Assembly: GCF_003970925.1 (NCBI RefSeq)
Contig: NZ_RWJF01000001.1
Span: 1,544,501 to 1,608,500 of the forward strand
DNA from: Sphingomonas ginkgonis
GTDB lineage: Bacteria > Pseudomonadota > Alphaproteobacteria > Sphingomonadales > Sphingomonadaceae
Reading direction: 5' to 3'
Length of the DNA stretch: 64,000 bases
How positions within the stretch are numbered: position 1 is the first letter of the stretch; every line of letters begins with the position of its first letter. A program made the position numbers and the translations under genes. Below the pieces are notes generated by a model, which saw only the letters and a program-made list of their open reading frames with translations, did no database searches and was not told the origin of the DNA. Positions 48,710 to 54,710 of the stretch are shown here, in pieces.

Positions 48710-48730
48710 TCCGCGCGGCTATAGCGCGGG

Positions 48731-49127
48731 GGCCAGAGGGCCGGGCGACCGCGGGCGCCGGAGTTGATCCGGGGCACGAGGAAAGTCCGGGCTCCACGGA
48801 ACAACGGTGCCGGGTAACGCCCGGCGGGTCGCCGCGAGGCGGCTCAGGGACAGTGCCACAGAAAGCATACCGCCCGTTCTCGAGCGGGTAAGGGCGAAAG
48901 GGTGCGGCAAGAGCGCACCGCGCTTCCGGCAACGGCAAGCGGCACGGTAAACCCCACCGGGTGCAAGACCGAATAGGGGCGACGAGGGATGCACAATCCC
49001 GGGGCTGTTCCGGCCCGTCGCCCGGGTTGGTTGCTTGAGCCCCTCCGCAAGGACGGGCCTAGAGGAATGGTCGCCCATCCGCCTTCGCGGGCGGTGGACA
49101 GAACCCGGCTTACAGGCCCTCTGGCGC
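48731..49127 (+). ncRNA. rnpB: RNase P RNA, bacterial class A
   Basis: The catalytic RNA of RNase P, about 397 nt. The 5' GCCAGAGGGCC (48732-48742) pairs with the 3' GGCCCTCTGGC (49115-49125) to form P1. The conserved core is present: GAGGAAAGTCCGGGCTCC near 48778, ACAGAAA near 48849, GGTAAACCCCACCGGGTGCA, TAGAGGAATGG near 49060 and GACAGAACCCGGCTTACAGG before P1. A TATAGC -10-like box lies at 48720-48725. Open frames on both strands across this segment are chance. Confidence 0.96.
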
Positions 49128-49178
49128 ATCATCGCGGACGCTCGCAAAAGCGGACGCAATTTTCTAATTAGGGCCGCG

Positions 49179-49721: not shown

Positions 49722-50140
49722 ACCCCGTCGAGCATGAAGGTGCCCGCGCTTCGGGCGATCGGCCGGTCCGGGTCGCCGCCGTGCGCCACCCCCGACACGA
49801 AGGCGATCTGGCGGGTGATGCTGGTGCAGTGGCAGCGGGCCACGACGGTCTCGCCGCGAACGGCGGGACGGAGATAGTCGAGGCGGAGGTCGAGCGTGAC
49901 GCTCGGCCGGTAGGCGCCGAGGGCAGTCCATACCGACACTCCGGAGCAGGTGTCGACGAGGCTGACGATCGGTCCCGAGGCCATGATCCCGCTGCTCGAG
50001 AAAGCGACCAGCTCCGGACGCCAGGGAAGGGCCATCTCGACCCAATCGTCGCCAGCGGCGCGGAACTGGAGCCCGATCGCCTTGGCGTGACCGACGTGGC
50101 GCGCCATCTCGAAGAAGCTGGCGATATCGAATCCGCTCAC
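49718..50140 (-). CDS. PaaI-family hotdog thioesterase
   Basis: A 140-residue hotdog-fold protein: the central helix SGIMASGPIVSLVDTCSGVSV and strands SVTLDLRLDYLRPAVRGE and VARCHCTSI. The family hydrolyses acyl- or aryl-CoA esters; the substrate is unknown. It overlaps the sufE gene by 4 nt and is last in the run that begins at pspA. Confidence 0.85.
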   Translation of the reverse strand: MSGFDIASFFEMARHVGHAKAIGLQFRAAGDDWVEMALPWRPELVAFSSSGIMASGPIVSLVDTCSGVSVWTALGAYRPSVTLDLRLDYLRPAVRGETVVARCHCTSITRQIAFVSGVAHGGDPDRPIARSAGTFMLDGV

Positions 50141-50547
50141 GCGAGCCGTGCCGCCGTGTCCCTGATCAGCGCGATCATGTTGGGAATGCCCTGCGTCCGG
50201 TTGGACGAGAGCTGGCGCGACAGGTCGAACCGGGCGAGCTCAGTCGGGATGTCCATCGCCAGGATTTCCTCTGCGGGCCGGTCCTGCACCGCCGACAGCA
50301 CCAGCGCCACAATCCCCTTGGTGATCGCGGCATTGCTGTCGGCGAGGAAATGGAGGCGATGATCCGGCTGCGGCATGGCGTAGAGCCAGACCGACGCCGA
50401 GCAGCCGCGCACCTTGGTCGAGTCGGTCTTGAGTGGATCGGGCATCGGCTCGAGCGAGCGGCCCAGCTCGATCAGCAGCCGATAGCGTTCCTCGCCGTCC
50501 AGCAGCTCATAATCGTCGAAGATGTCGGACAGCGCGGGGAGGGTCAT
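50137..50547 (-). CDS. sufE: Cysteine desulfuration protein SufE
   Basis: A 136-residue sulfur acceptor that takes persulfide sulfur from SufS for Fe-S cluster assembly. The active Cys49 is in KVRGCSASVW. The rest (YELLDGEERYRLLIELGR; RTQGIPNMIALI) fits the family. It lies 19 bp after the last small psp-linked gene, without the other suf genes. Confidence 0.93.
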   Translation of the reverse strand: MTLPALSDIFDDYELLDGEERYRLLIELGRSLEPMPDPLKTDSTKVRGCSASVWLYAMPQPDHRLHFLADSNAAITKGIVALVLSAVQDRPAEEILAMDIPTELARFDLSRQLSSNRTQGIPNMIALIRDTAARLA

Positions 50548-50566
50548 GGCCAGCGCCTAGCAGAGC

Positions 50567-50812
50567 CTAGCGGTGGCGCAATTCCTCGATCTGGCGCGAG
50601 AGCGTGTCCTCTTTCTCGACCGCGATCCGCTCGAGCACCTGGATCCGGTCTTTGAGCTGGCGGACCTCGTCGCGAAGCTGGCGGGTCTCGACGCCGGCAT
50701 CTGCGTCCACCTCGGGATGCTCCCAGCGGTGCCGGACCCGCATGCGCTGCTTCATCAGGGTGAACAGGAACACCATGCCCAGGACGGTCAGCACGAACTC
50801 GAACGGGTTCAT
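50567..50812 (-). CDS. Psp-operon small membrane protein, fifth paralogue (short type)
   Basis: An 81-residue protein with one N-terminal helix (about 3-19, FEFVLTVLGMVFLFTLM), a basic RMRVRHRWEHP segment and a coiled coil ending in RIQVLERIAVEKEDTLSRQ and IEELR. The ending matches the shared tail of its neighbours but lacks the exact IVTDRG. The start follows AAGGA. It resembles PspB in size and layout. It is the most diverged of the five and the last before sufE. Confidence 0.8.
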   Translation of the reverse strand: MNPFEFVLTVLGMVFLFTLMKQRMRVRHRWEHPEVDADAGVETRQLRDEVRQLKDRIQVLERIAVEKEDTLSRQIEELRHR

Positions 50813-50818
50813 CGGTCC

Positions 50819-51094
50819 TTACTCTCCCACCGAGAGGCGCGGCCTGGCCCGCAGCGCCTCGATCTGCGACGCGGTCTCGAGCCCGCGATCGGTGACGATC
50901 TGCTCGAGGATTCGTACCCGGTGCTCCAGCTCCATGTTGCTGGCCGCATATTGCGCCGTCTTCTCTGCCACCACGCGGGCCTCCACTTCCAGCCTCTTCT
51001 CGCGCAGGTTGAACCAGCGGCGCGCGAGATAGAGGAGCAAGATGGTGGGGAGCAGGAAGGCAATCAACAGGCCGAAAACGTCACCGGGTTCCAT
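50819..51094 (-). CDS. Psp-operon small membrane protein, type B (second copy)
   Basis: A 91-residue protein: a helix (about 8-24, LLIAFLLPTILLLYLAR), then a coiled coil with VVAEKTAQYAASN and the tail RVRILEQIVTDRG / ASQIEALR. It pairs with the gene at 51453 through AEK(S/T)AQYA. Its ATG overlaps the stop of the preceding type A gene by 1 nt (TAATG). The role is unknown; it is probably part of the PspA membrane-stress complex. Confidence 0.82.
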   Translation of the reverse strand: MEPGDVFGLLIAFLLPTILLLYLARRWFNLREKRLEVEARVVAEKTAQYAASNMELEHRVRILEQIVTDRGLETASQIEALRARPRLSVGE

Positions 51095-51432
51095 TATGCA
51101 TCTCCAAGTTGGCGCGGGGATGGCTGCCTGCGCAGCGCCTCGATCTGGGCGGCCGTCTCGAGCCCCCGGTCGGTGACGATCTCCTCGACCGTCTCGACCC
51201 GGCCCGCGAGCCGGTCGAGGTCACTGCGAAGGCGGGCATTCTCCGCGACAAGGGTTCTGATCTGATCAAGCGCCGCCTCGCCGGCCACCGGGTGCGCCGG
51301 CTTGCCGAAGCTGTCGAGCGGATAGCCGTGCCGAACCCGAAGCCAGGTCGTGAAGATCCAGCCGCAGACCGCGACCAGCCCAACCAGGATGCCAAGGACG
51401 GGAATCAAGCCGATGACCTGATCCATCATCAT
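51094..51432 (-). CDS. Psp-operon small membrane protein, type A (second copy)
   Basis: A protein of up to 112 residues: a helix (about 6-31, LIPVLGILVGLVAVCGW), the motif RHGYPLDSFGKPAHP, and a coiled coil ending RVETVEEIVTDRG / AAQIEALR. It matches the gene at 51747 (KNGYPL...GMPIHP). Three ATGs stand in a row at 51432, 51429 and 51426; the AGGGAG ribosome-binding site best fits the second or third. Confidence 0.82.
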   Translation of the reverse strand: MMMDQVIGLIPVLGILVGLVAVCGWIFTTWLRVRHGYPLDSFGKPAHPVAGEAALDQIRTLVAENARLRSDLDRLAGRVETVEEIVTDRGLETAAQIEALRRQPSPRQLGDA

Positions 51433-51452
51433 CTCTCCCTGTTATGGCGGGC

Positions 51453-51734
51453 TTACCGCTGTTCGCCCTGACCGATCGGAACGACCGGCTGACGGCGGAG
51501 CGCCTCGATCTGCGCCGCGGTCTCGACGCCGCGATCGGTGACGATCTCCTCGAGCACCCGGAGGCGCTGTTCGATGCGCTCGACATGCTGGGCATATTGC
51601 GCGCTCTTCTCGGCGGCGAGGCCGGTCTGCGCGTCGAGCTGACGCTCCTTGACCCGGATCCACATCTTGAACGGCGCGATCCCGATCGCGGCAAGCGGGA
51701 TCAATACCCAGATCCAGCTGGCGACATCATGCAT
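51453..51734 (-). CDS. Psp-operon small membrane protein, type B (first copy)
   Basis: A 93-residue protein: a helix (about 6-24, SWIWVLIPLAAIGIAPF), then a coiled coil with LAAEKSAQYAQHVER and the tail RLRVLEEIVTDRG / AAQIEALRRQ. It is clearly paralogous to the gene at 50819. AGGGGACCCCT, a short palindrome, covers the preceding stop codon and the ribosome-binding site. Confidence 0.82.
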   Translation of the reverse strand: MHDVASWIWVLIPLAAIGIAPFKMWIRVKERQLDAQTGLAAEKSAQYAQHVERIEQRLRVLEEIVTDRGVETAAQIEALRRQPVVPIGQGEQR

Positions 51735-51746
51735 GACAGGGGTCCC

Positions 51747-52082
51747 CTAGTTACGAGTGATCTGCAGCGCGTCGATTTCGCGCGACAATTGCGAAGGCTG
51801 GTCGGTGACGATCCGCTCGACCGTCTCCAGCCGGTCCTTGATCGAACCAATCTCGGCCTTGAGCTGGGCATTCTCGCTGGTCAGGAGCTTGATCCGTTCG
51901 ACCGCTTCCTGGTCGCTCTTCGGGTGGATCGGCATGCCCCAGGCGTTTTGCAGCGGATAGCCGTTCTTGATCTTGAGCCAGGTGTGCATGAGCGACCCGC
52001 CGACCCCGATCGCGACGATCGCGACGACGAGGGGAAGGATGCGCAGGACGAACTCGAAGGCGGCGCTGACTTCCGGATCCAT
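51747..52082 (-). CDS. Psp-operon small membrane protein, type A (first copy)
   Basis: A 111-residue protein: an N-terminal helix (about 14-35, RILPLVVAIVAIGVGGSLM), the motif KNGYPLQNAWGMPIHP, and a coiled coil (about 62-105) ending RLETVERIVTDQP / LSREIDALQ. It is the first gene after pspC (30-bp gap). The tail resembles that of PspC (RLADVETYVTT...LEREIEQLR), suggesting common origin or contact with the same partner. Confidence 0.82.
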   Translation of the reverse strand: MDPEVSAAFEFVLRILPLVVAIVAIGVGGSLMHTWLKIKNGYPLQNAWGMPIHPKSDQEAVERIKLLTSENAQLKAEIGSIKDRLETVERIVTDQPSQLSREIDALQITRN

Positions 52083-52112
52083 GGTCGTTCTTCTCCCTAT
52101 TGGCTGACGCCG

Positions 52113-52505
52113 CTAGCGCAGCTGCTCGATCTCGCGTTCGAGCGAGCGGTTGCTGGTGGTGACATAGGTTTCGACGTCGGCCAGCCGGCGGTCAATCTCG
52201 CGCAGCCGGGCGCGGATGTTGCGCGCGCTGGACGAGGGCGACTGGCGGACGCCTTGCCAGAAGCGGTCCTCCTCAGGGGTCGCCGTCGCGAACTCACGCG
52301 GCTTGTCCTCGGCGATCCAGCCGGTGATGAAATAGGCCGGGATCAGCACGCCGGCGCCGCCCATCACGCAGGCCAGCACGAACATGATCCGGACCAGGTT
52401 GACGTCCATCCCGGCATAGTCGGCGATCCCGGCGCAGACGCCCATCACCTTGCCGTTGCGCTTGTCCTTGTAGAAGCGGGTGCGGCTGGGAGGCTGGACG
52501 CTCAT
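52113..52505 (-). CDS. pspC: Phage shock protein C
   Basis: A 130-residue inner-membrane protein. The PspC domain is FYKDKRNGKVMGVCAGIADY, then VNLVRIMFVLACVMGGAGV, LIPAYFITGWIA. A helical tail (about 95-130) ends RLADVETYVTT / LEREIEQLR. PspC with PspB senses membrane stress and recruits PspA. ATG 52505 overlaps the pspB stop as ATGA; a longer frame upstream is not PspC-like. Confidence 0.93.
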   Translation of the reverse strand: MSVQPPSRTRFYKDKRNGKVMGVCAGIADYAGMDVNLVRIMFVLACVMGGAGVLIPAYFITGWIAEDKPREFATATPEEDRFWQGVRQSPSSSARNIRARLREIDRRLADVETYVTTSNRSLEREIEQLR

Positions 52506-52801
52506 CGACGGGTCTCCTGCATGGCCCGGCTGCGCTCCAGCTCGGCGCGGATCGCGTCGACGCTGTTGTCGGGCAGGCACTGCTGCCGCCAGCCGGGATT
52601 CTCGGCGTTCATGATCCGCTCGATCGAGCAGAGCCGGTCGTCGAGACGGCGGGCCATCTCGTGCAGCTCGTCGAGCAGCTTCTCGTCGCTGTCGGTCAGC
52701 TTCGCGCTGCTCTTCCACTTGGTGACATAGTGGAAGATCAGCCACGGCAGGCCCAGGAACAGGACCGTGATGGCGATCAGCGGGACGAAAACCTCTTCCA
52801 T
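52502..52801 (-). CDS. pspB: Phage shock protein B
   Basis: A 99-residue protein with an N-terminal helix (about 4-25, FVPLIAITVLFLGLPWLIFHY) followed by a coiled coil with LHEMARRLDDRLCSIERIM and NPGWRQQ, the PspB signature. The extra C-terminal part (about 75-99) is longer than in E. coli PspB. The gap to pspA is 4 bp, and it overlaps pspC. Confidence 0.9.
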   Translation of the reverse strand: MEEVFVPLIAITVLFLGLPWLIFHYVTKWKSSAKLTDSDEKLLDELHEMARRLDDRLCSIERIMNAENPGWRQQCLPDNSVDAIRAELERSRAMQETRR

Positions 52802-52805
52802 GTGA

Positions 52806-53474
52806 CTATTTCCCCTTGGCGGCGAGGGCCGCCTTCATCTGTTCAAGTTCCTTGTTGACCGACTCCGACGCGCGGAGCTCGGCGATCTCCTCCTCCAGGC
52901 TCTTCGGCCCGGCCATTCCCATCGCATCGGCACGCCCCTCGGCGAAGTCCGCGCGCCGCTCGAGCAGCTCGAAGCGGCTCATCGCGTCGCCCGTGCGGCT
53001 GCCGTTCAGCACCTCGTTGGTGCGGGCGCGGGTCATCGCGCTGTCCATCCGGCTGCTGATCGAGTTCTGCCGGGCCCGCGCCTCGCGGATCTTGCCCATC
53101 AGCTTGGCGATGTCCGCCTCATAGCCCTTGAGCGTGTCGTCGATCGTGGCGCACTCGCCCTTGAGACCGGCCGCCATGTCGGCCGCCTTCTGCCGCTCGA
53201 TCAGCGCCGCCTTGGCGAGATCCTCGCGCTCCTTGCTGAGCGCCAGTTCGGCCTTCTCGGTCCAGCTGTCCTGAAGCGTCTCGAGCTTGCCGATCGCCCG
53301 GCGCATTTCCTTGCCGTCGGCGATGCAGCGCGCCGCCGAGGCGCGGACCTCGACGAGGGTCTCCTCCATTTCCAGGATGATCATGCGGATCATCCGCGAG
53401 GGATCCTCGGCGCGGTCGAGCAGCTCGGCGAAATTGGCTGCCATGATGTCCCGCGTTCGGGAAAAGATGCTCAT
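52806..53474 (-). CDS. pspA: Phage shock protein A
   Basis: A 222-residue ESCRT-III-like protein of long helices. It opens with MSIFSRTRDIMAANFAELLD and RAEDPSRMIRMIILEMEETL, the PspA signature, and continues as coiled coil (about 25-185). In enterobacteria it both inhibits PspF and coats damaged membrane. It heads the operon, with a sigma-54 promoter about 50 bp upstream and pspF divergent. Confidence 0.96.
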   Translation of the reverse strand: MSIFSRTRDIMAANFAELLDRAEDPSRMIRMIILEMEETLVEVRASAARCIADGKEMRRAIGKLETLQDSWTEKAELALSKEREDLAKAALIERQKAADMAAGLKGECATIDDTLKGYEADIAKLMGKIREARARQNSISSRMDSAMTRARTNEVLNGSRTGDAMSRFELLERRADFAEGRADAMGMAGPKSLEEEIAELRASESVNKELEQMKAALAAKGK

Positions 53475-53522
53475 CCGTCACTCCGTATTCGAAAAGCAGG
53501 GCCCTGTGCTTTGTCCCATCGA

Positions 53523-53538
53523 TGCAGGGAGCGTGCCA
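53523..53538 (-). promoter_or_regulatory. Sigma-54 promoter of the psp operon
   Basis: On the minus strand TGGCACG (53538-53532), four bases, then CTGCA (53527-53523), matches the -24/-12 consensus TGGCACG-N4-TTGCA with one difference. It lies about 50 bp before the pspA start. The divergent PspF protein is the expected activator. The roughly 110 bp between it and pspF would hold the upstream activator sites, which I cannot delimit. Confidence 0.8.
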
Positions 53539-53651
53539 AATGCCCGCTTTCGGCCAATGTCCTCCCGAGTTCTGCGAACGAACCAACGGACGCTTGGCGA
53601 GCCGTACGAACCATCTTGCCAAAGCATGGGATTTCCCGCCAACTCGCAGCC

Positions 53652-54710
53652 ATGGAACGGACCCAGCAGTTCGTCGGCCAGAGCCTCGCCTTCCTCGACG
53701 CCGTCGAGCGGACCAGCCGTGCCGCGCCACTCAATCGGCCGGTGCTGGTGATCGGCGAGCGCGGGACGGGCAAGGAGCTGATCGCAGAGCGCCTCCACCA
53801 CCTGTCGACCCGCTGGGCGGGGCCGCTGGTGACGATGAACTGCGCCGCGCTTCCGGAGAACCTGATCGAGGCCGAGCTGTTCGGGCATGAGGCGGGCAGT
53901 TTCACCGGTGCGGCCAAGACTCGCAAGGGGCGGTTCGAGGAGGCCGACGGGGGGACGCTGTTCCTGGACGAGCTGGCGACGCTCTCCTCGCCGGCGCAGG
54001 ACCGGCTGCTGCGGGCGGTCGAATATGGCGAGGTGACCCGGATCGGCGCCTCCAAGCCGGTGCGGGTCGACGTCCGCATCGTCGCCGCCACCAACGAGCA
54101 TCTTCCCGGGCTGGTCGAGCGGGGCAAGTTCCGGGCCGACCTCCTCGACCGGCTGAGCTTCGAGGTGGTGACCCTGCCGCCGCTGCGGCTGCGCACCGGC
54201 GACGTGCCGTTGCTGGCCGAGCATTTCGCCCGGCGCATGGCGGCCGAGCTGGAATGGCCGGGCTGGCCGGGTTTCTCGCCGGAGGCGCTGGCGACGCTCG
54301 ACGGCTATGGCTGGCCGGGCAATGTGCGCGAGCTTCGCAACGTGGTCGAGCGCGCGGTCTACCGGCACGAGGACCCGGAGCGGACGGTCGACGAAATCGT
54401 CTTCGATCCCTTCGCCTCGCCGTGGGCGCCGCAGCGGACCACGCCGACGCTGGTCCACCCGGTCCAGGCGCCGGGGCCGGAGCCGGTCGTCGAGACCGCC
54501 CCGGCCGCGGCGGCGGGGGTGGCGGGCGAGGAGGTCAACGACTTCCGGGCGGCGGTCACCCAGTTCGAGCGGGGCGTGCTGGAGGATGCGCTGGCGAAGA
54601 ACCGCTACAACCAGCGGGCGACCGCGGCCGCGCTCAGCCTCAGCTACGACCAGCTCCGCCATGCGCTGAAGCGTCACCAGCTGCTCGACCGCGAAGCGGC
54701 GGCGGGCTGA
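53652..54710 (+). CDS. pspF: Psp operon activator PspF (sigma-54-dependent)
   Basis: A 352-residue AAA+ enhancer-binding protein without a regulatory N-terminal domain, like PspF. Walker A is GERGTGKE (35-42), the sigma-54 contact loop GSFTGA (82-87, a variant of GAFTGA), and Walker B GTLFLDE (101-107). The C-terminal helix-turn-helix is RATAAALSLSYDQLRHALKR. ATG 53652 matches the family start; the longer frame would cross the pspA promoter. Confidence 0.93.
   Translation: MERTQQFVGQSLAFLDAVERTSRAAPLNRPVLVIGERGTGKELIAERLHHLSTRWAGPLVTMNCAALPENLIEAELFGHEAGSFTGAAKTRKGRFEEADGGTLFLDELATLSSPAQDRLLRAVEYGEVTRIGASKPVRVDVRIVAATNEHLPGLVERGKFRADLLDRLSFEVVTLPPLRLRTGDVPLLAEHFARRMAAELEWPGWPGFSPEALATLDGYGWPGNVRELRNVVERAVYRHEDPERTVDEIVFDPFASPWAPQRTTPTLVHPVQAPGPEPVVETAPAAAAGVAGEEVNDFRAAVTQFERGVLEDALAKNRYNQRATAAALSLSYDQLRHALKRHQLLDREAAAG

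Follow-up and report, generated by a model that had tools for sequence, protein, structure and literature searches.

The locus downstream of pspABC

We analysed a stretch of 64,000 nucleotides from Sphingomonas ginkgonis (the window; positions are counted from its first letter), in which a phage-shock (psp) operon continues beyond pspA, pspB and pspC into an array of five small genes. Their products are related to one another and appear, on sequence comparison, to be distant relatives of PspB and of the C-terminal tail of PspC. The array spans 50567-52082 and consists of five open reading frames (ORFs), all on the minus strand, encoding 111, 93, 112, 91 and 81 residues, here named A1, B1, A2, B2 and E. 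The minus-strand gene order is pspA, pspB, pspC, A1, B1, A2, B2, E and sufE, with pspF divergent:

53511..54710, plus strand: pspF, divergent sigma-54 enhancer-binding activator (TIGR02974, 483.9 bits against a cut-off of 443.55)
53652, plus strand: ATG, the likely start of pspF, as profile matches begin near residues 45-55
53523..53538, minus strand: sigma-54-type promoter TGGCACG-N4-CTGCA, 48 base pairs (bp) before the pspA start codon
52806..53474, minus strand: pspA (TIGR02977, 250.8 bits against 242.95)
52502..52801, minus strand: pspB (PF06667, 89.4 bits against 25.6)
52113..52505, minus strand: pspC with C-terminal tail (TIGR02978, 131.2 bits against 104)
51747..52082, minus strand: A1, class A; transmembrane helix, GYPL...WG...P loop, coiled coil, VERIVTD...IxxL tail
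51453..51734, minus strand: B1, class B; transmembrane helix, AEKxAQYA, LExIVTD tail
51094..51432, minus strand: A2, class A
50819..51094, minus strand: B2, class B, overlapping A2 by one base
50567..50812, minus strand: E, class E, the final gene of the array
50137..50547, minus strand: sufE, so named from its sequence; marks the array end in the family and is syntenic across loci

The preliminary description of this DNA, which reported five small membrane or coiled-coil genes after pspABC, was right about the genes: they lie where it placed them, encode 81-112 residues and are close-packed before sufE. Its span, 50567..52505, holds at the lower end, and its upper end is the start of pspC. 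Within pspABC a 4 bp gap is followed by a 4 bp overlap, after pspC the intergenic gaps are 30, 12, 20, −1 and 6 bp, and 19 bp separate E from sufE.

The A pair and the B pair had been proposed to be paralogues, and the alignments bear this out: the scores are 186 for A1 with A2 (z 19.1) and 178 for B1 with B2 (z 15.3), values that none of 400 window-shuffled controls reaches in either case. Furthermore, the cross pairs among all five give z values of 3.9-13.0, each reached by at most one of 400 shuffles, and A1, B1, A2, B2 and E have in common the motif R[LVI]xx[LV]ExI...IxxL near the C-terminus. B1 and A2 are nearly identical in the shared C-terminal segment (21 of 26 residues). By these comparisons all five proteins are mutually related, a point missed earlier.

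The array products are predicted to be single-pass inner-membrane proteins with the N-terminus out and a cytoplasmic coiled coil. The pattern is positive-inside, with more lysine and arginine after the helix than before it in 384 of 386 sequences. One N-terminal membrane helix followed by a long helix is supported by hydropathy and by a model of A1, built from 16 sequences, which predicts helices at residues 3-40 (holding the membrane segment) and 55-110 (mean predicted local distance difference test score, pLDDT, 81.2; predicted template modelling score, pTM, 0.33). In the model, the GYPL..WG..P motif is carried by the loop between the helices, residues 41-54. Eleven positions of class A are invariant in 65 aligned sequences: G41, Y42, P43, G49, P54, E70, N71, R84, E89, I91 and L106.

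The pspABC genes and the five array genes apparently form one operon, with a predicted PspF/sigma-54 promoter. The site at 53523-53538 has one mismatch to the sigma-54 consensus and the three other matches in the window have two each; four matches are no more than expected by chance (mean 7.45). A looser sigma-54-like pattern lies near pspA in 85 of 116 loci, versus 23 of 605 random control segments from the same loci. Neither a sigma-70-like site nor a minus-strand terminator-like site was found in 50000-53800.

Array composition in related genomes

The psp loci compared come from 36 other genomes of the genus and from 60 other genera of the family; the family loci were drawn from genomes with a PspB match (137 of 149), 60 of the 137 being taken, mostly in the order of their handles. 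Two genomes contributed two loci each (L058 and L059 from G025; L044 and L071 from G011, which is broken), and L148-L151, which hold no psp genes, were excluded from the tree and the class counts. A search with the alignment of the five proteins matched all 37 genus genomes, with 2-6 matches each, and 16 of 24 genomes from other families of the order. With an iterated profile, arrays beside pspABC, which the preliminary description had expected in relatives, were found in 38 of 38 pspB loci of the genus (1-6 genes) and in 59 of the 60 other family genera (1-8 genes). Among loci in which sufE was located, 36 of 36 from the genus and 53 of 55 from other genera have every copy between pspC and sufE.

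The genes fall into five classes, A, B, K, E and Z, in the loose order [A/B/K]n-E-Z. The fifth gene, taken earlier for a diverged extra copy, belongs instead to class E, which comes last in 36 of 39 genus loci and occurs in 60 of the 62 loci from other members of the family. The earlier proposal, from the A-B-A-B order, of a duplicated pair of genes is likewise unsupported. Of 98 arrays, one shows that order. In the tree, each of the four copies has closer neighbours in other species than its partner in this genome: A1 and A2 are 3.3 apart, versus 0.5-1.3 from A1 to its closest counterparts elsewhere and 1.3 for A2, and B1 and B2 are also 3.3 apart, versus 0.4-1.0 for the neighbours of B1 elsewhere and 0.8 for B2. 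A recent duplication of such a unit is thus not supported by the sequences. The B1 group of 10 and the B2 group of 23 have tree support of 0.99 and 0.98, and that of A2 is weak (0.19). When genes are typed by smallest distance, the one after A1 is of B2 type in nine genus loci and of B1 type in six, this locus included.

In the 20 loci from sister families of the order, a single E-class gene occurs in two and a second PspB in one more; sufE lies 565-687 nucleotides past the pspC start in seven of these loci, 1.9-4.4 kb on in seven, and was not found in six. Since sufE sits so close to pspC in the first seven, the arrangement pspABC-sufE may be ancestral and the array a later insertion between pspC and sufE. 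Among loci from outside the order (16 of 17 over the cut-off), no array genes were found in 15 of 16 from other alphaproteobacterial families, and in two of the 15 (L140 and L141) no pspC was found either. In the sixteenth (L132:3426-3914), pspC is followed by a stand-alone transmembrane protein whose tail resembles that of PspC, and by a second PspB, possibly a parallel start of such an array. E-like genes also stand alone, with no adjacent psp gene, at L148:4896-5168, L153:1495-1725, L163:1498-1788 and L164:1495-1737, and three genomes from a further family of the phylum have them too; one such gene directly follows what looks by eye like an rpoD gene. A stand-alone E-like gene may be the ancestor of the array.

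Kinship with PspB and the PspC tail

PspB (PF06667, TIGR02976) resembles the array proteins in having one N-terminal membrane helix, a predicted N-out/C-in topology, a cytoplasmic coiled coil and a place in the psp operon. However, none of the five passes the curated PspB cut-offs. PF06667 finds the E protein alone (E-value 0.041; 14.4 bits against 25.6), the other four being unlisted, and TIGR02976, with a cut-off of 51.7 bits, gives 12.5 for A1, 19.0 for B1 (E-value 0.0012), 14.1 for A2 and 14.3 for E, with B2 unlisted. A1 also has a sub-threshold match, in its tail, to the PspC profile TIGR02978 (E-value 0.0018); other sub-threshold Pfam and NCBIfam matches are to coiled-coil families such as ZapB. 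The R-h-x-x-h-E core of PspB is present in the array proteins too, but is not specific, occurring also in most PspA. The array proteins further differ from PspB in their class-specific loops, in their copy number of up to eight and in ending like PspC (IVTD...IEALR) rather than with the PspB end. From PspC they differ in being free-standing and without the PspC domain, PF04024 giving no match to any of the five in the Pfam scan. PspD, PspE and PspG are, like the array products, small additional products of the Psp regulon; Pfam and NCBIfam gave no profile match under these names at E-values up to 1.

Comparison of class alignments by hhalign (one comparison each) gave 85.6, 95.3, 92.6 and 91.9% for classes A, K, B and E against PspB, with homology extending along the length. 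Against PspC, from its second transmembrane helix through the coiled coil to the tail, the values were 95.8, 94.1, 91.9 and 94.8%, with alignment over nearly the full length. A tail test covered sequences of classes A, K, B and E that have a recognised anchor, which 8 of 389 lack. Class Z reaches 94-96% against B and E and 3.9% against PspB directly. PspB and the PspC tail reach 70-88% against each other, and 21-25% when one side is taken from other families only. The profiles show no tie to PspA (at most 6.1%). Nor do they support an identity as FtsB/DivIC: FtsB, which has the same architecture, gave 3.1, 56.1, 18.4 and 8.4% against A, K, B and E, so that class K is ambiguous in this comparison and the other classes are not tied to FtsB.

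Three results weaken the case for kinship with PspB and the PspC tail. The reversed hhalign controls stay below 20% except for class A against PspC, at 49 and 42%; PspB as the query gives 76.2% with class A; and a PspC profile from other families alone gives 69.2-90.4%. On balance, the profiles indicate that the array proteins are distant relatives of PspB and the PspC tail, and neither a new kind of protein nor unrelated receptors; the genes are best named PspB/PspC-tail-like, not PspB. Within the family, 12 of 149 genomes have two PspB matches 0.7-2.3 kb apart, the second being over the Pfam cut-off in six.

Elsewhere in the window, a minus-strand ORF at 48719-49159 with ACKPGSVHRPRRRMGDHSSR resembles what we take to be a repeated intergenic element translated by chance.

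The array and the Psp circuit

Twelve family genomes lack a PspB match, and nine of these (90-100% complete, from seven genera) also lack PspA, PspC and array matches. In G100 (L216:2806-4407) pspA and a pspC of 88 residues are accompanied by two array genes, of class B (75.8 bits) and class E (67.8 bits), and no PspB match was found in this genome; a small secreted-looking ORF immediately precedes its pspA. The absence of PspB in two further genomes looks like the result of assembly breaks, because in G125 pspC stands at the start of a contig, followed by the array, and in G141 (66% complete) the array lies on a 3.9 kb contig. G109, which keeps pspABC and has no array, is a true exception.

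The S. ginkgonis genome also carries, outside the window, a second operon of pspA2, pspC2 and a Z gene (C1:2668517-2669990; L221:518-1991, minus strand), whose pspA2 is 65% identical over 219 residues and pspC2 27% over 126, with Z scoring 93.0 bits. Z matches occur in 68 of 71 genus genomes. In the 8 best-scoring loci from these 68 genomes, one of them from S. ginkgonis itself, Z is preceded by pspA-like and pspC2-like genes in all eight, a sigma-54-like site lies upstream in seven, and no PspB match was found near Z in any. This operon is the strongest hint of an array-class protein acting with PspA and PspC in the place of PspB. Upstream of pspA2, an ORF (L221:1954-2298, minus strand) has a signal-peptide-like stretch; at a guess it may resemble Zymomonas ZMO1062, which is called 'pspD' in two papers and numbered beside pspA.

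In Escherichia coli, PspB uses membrane regions to bind itself and PspC, and both contact with PspA and signalling depend on a putative leucine zipper of PspC (PMC3068692); a further interaction of PspB is with ArcB (PMC2764110). Ravi et al. (2024; PMC11237479) mention PspB duplicates in psp operons in one sentence and report PspC fused to a divergent C-terminal PspB, but the accessible part of that paper describes no array, classes, order or lineage. The main text of Popp et al. (2022; PMC9239133) has no word starting 'sphingo'. Among the open-licence papers listed, we found no description of the array, which does not establish its absence from print.

We lean, with modest confidence, towards the array being a bank of alternative PspB-type subunits for PspC and PspA, because of the distant homology to PspB and the PspC tail, the locus context, the joint loss with Psp, the PspB-less cases and the topology. 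The array products would be made from the predicted PspF/sigma-54 operon and would associate with PspC, with PspB and among themselves by means of their membrane helices and coiled coils. Together they would present several surfaces on which PspA could dock or through which it could sense, and these surfaces would release PspF and keep PspA at the membrane. E (and Z), at the array end, could be basal subunits and A, B and K variable ones, and the swap, gain and loss of modules between species would adjust the range of envelope stresses sensed or the amount of PspA retained. Such a bank would let several inputs feed one PspA-PspF switch. A more far-reaching version is tentative: in sphingomonads a fast-shuffling cassette [A/B/K]n-E-Z would have replaced the single PspB, forming a species-specific combinatorial sensor around PspC and PspA, and PspB could become dispensable, as in G100 and in pspA2-pspC2-Z.

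Alternatively, the array products could be effectors: membrane-anchored coiled coils that assemble as hetero-oligomers and, after the operon is switched on, stiffen the inner membrane or tether it, a mode of action proposed for PspG or PspD, with PspA-PspF signalling passing through PspB and PspC only. The array genes come after pspC at the end of the operon, their copy number varies as for dose-dependent effectors, and the juxtamembrane GYPL..WG..P loop of class A (its G41, Y42, P43, G49 and P54 in 65 of 65) could bind lipid or another partner. The distant homology, however, is to signalling parts, PspB and the PspC tail, and an array-class gene is retained where PspB is absent, so that we regard this explanation as somewhat improbable. 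Still less likely, the proteins would be partners of something outside the Psp circuit and would use the operon only for stress-dependent expression. The stand-alone E-like genes of sister families and of a few genomes elsewhere in the phylum would fit such a role, but the nine family genomes without PspA, PspB and PspC have no array match, and Z accompanies pspA2-pspC2 in the 8 best-scoring loci from 68 genomes.

Least probable, in our judgement, is that the copies are tandem duplicates under weak constraint, retained by drift and none with a role of its own. Turnover is indeed rapid: BBEAKE is found versus BEAKE, and BBEE versus BE, between loci whose PspA are 97.2% and 95.8% identical. Among 18 best-matching gene pairs from six close same-genus pairs of loci, the ratio of non-synonymous (dN) to synonymous (dS) change exceeds 0.4 in six. 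On the other hand, dN is lower than dS in all 18 (ratios 0.04-0.81), some positions are invariant across genera, and an E gene recurs in 36 of 39 and 60 of 62 loci.

As a bank of PspB-type subunits, the natural arrays, mixed and sometimes PspB-less, would be a ready set of variants for mapping the surfaces that contact PspA and PspC, and small proteins that reach no curated Pfam or NCBIfam cut-off, these five among them, would gain a likely role. The family would be a lineage in which the sensor side has diversified while PspA remained similar, and its members, with differing gene mixes at the same place, may build differing versions of the sensor.
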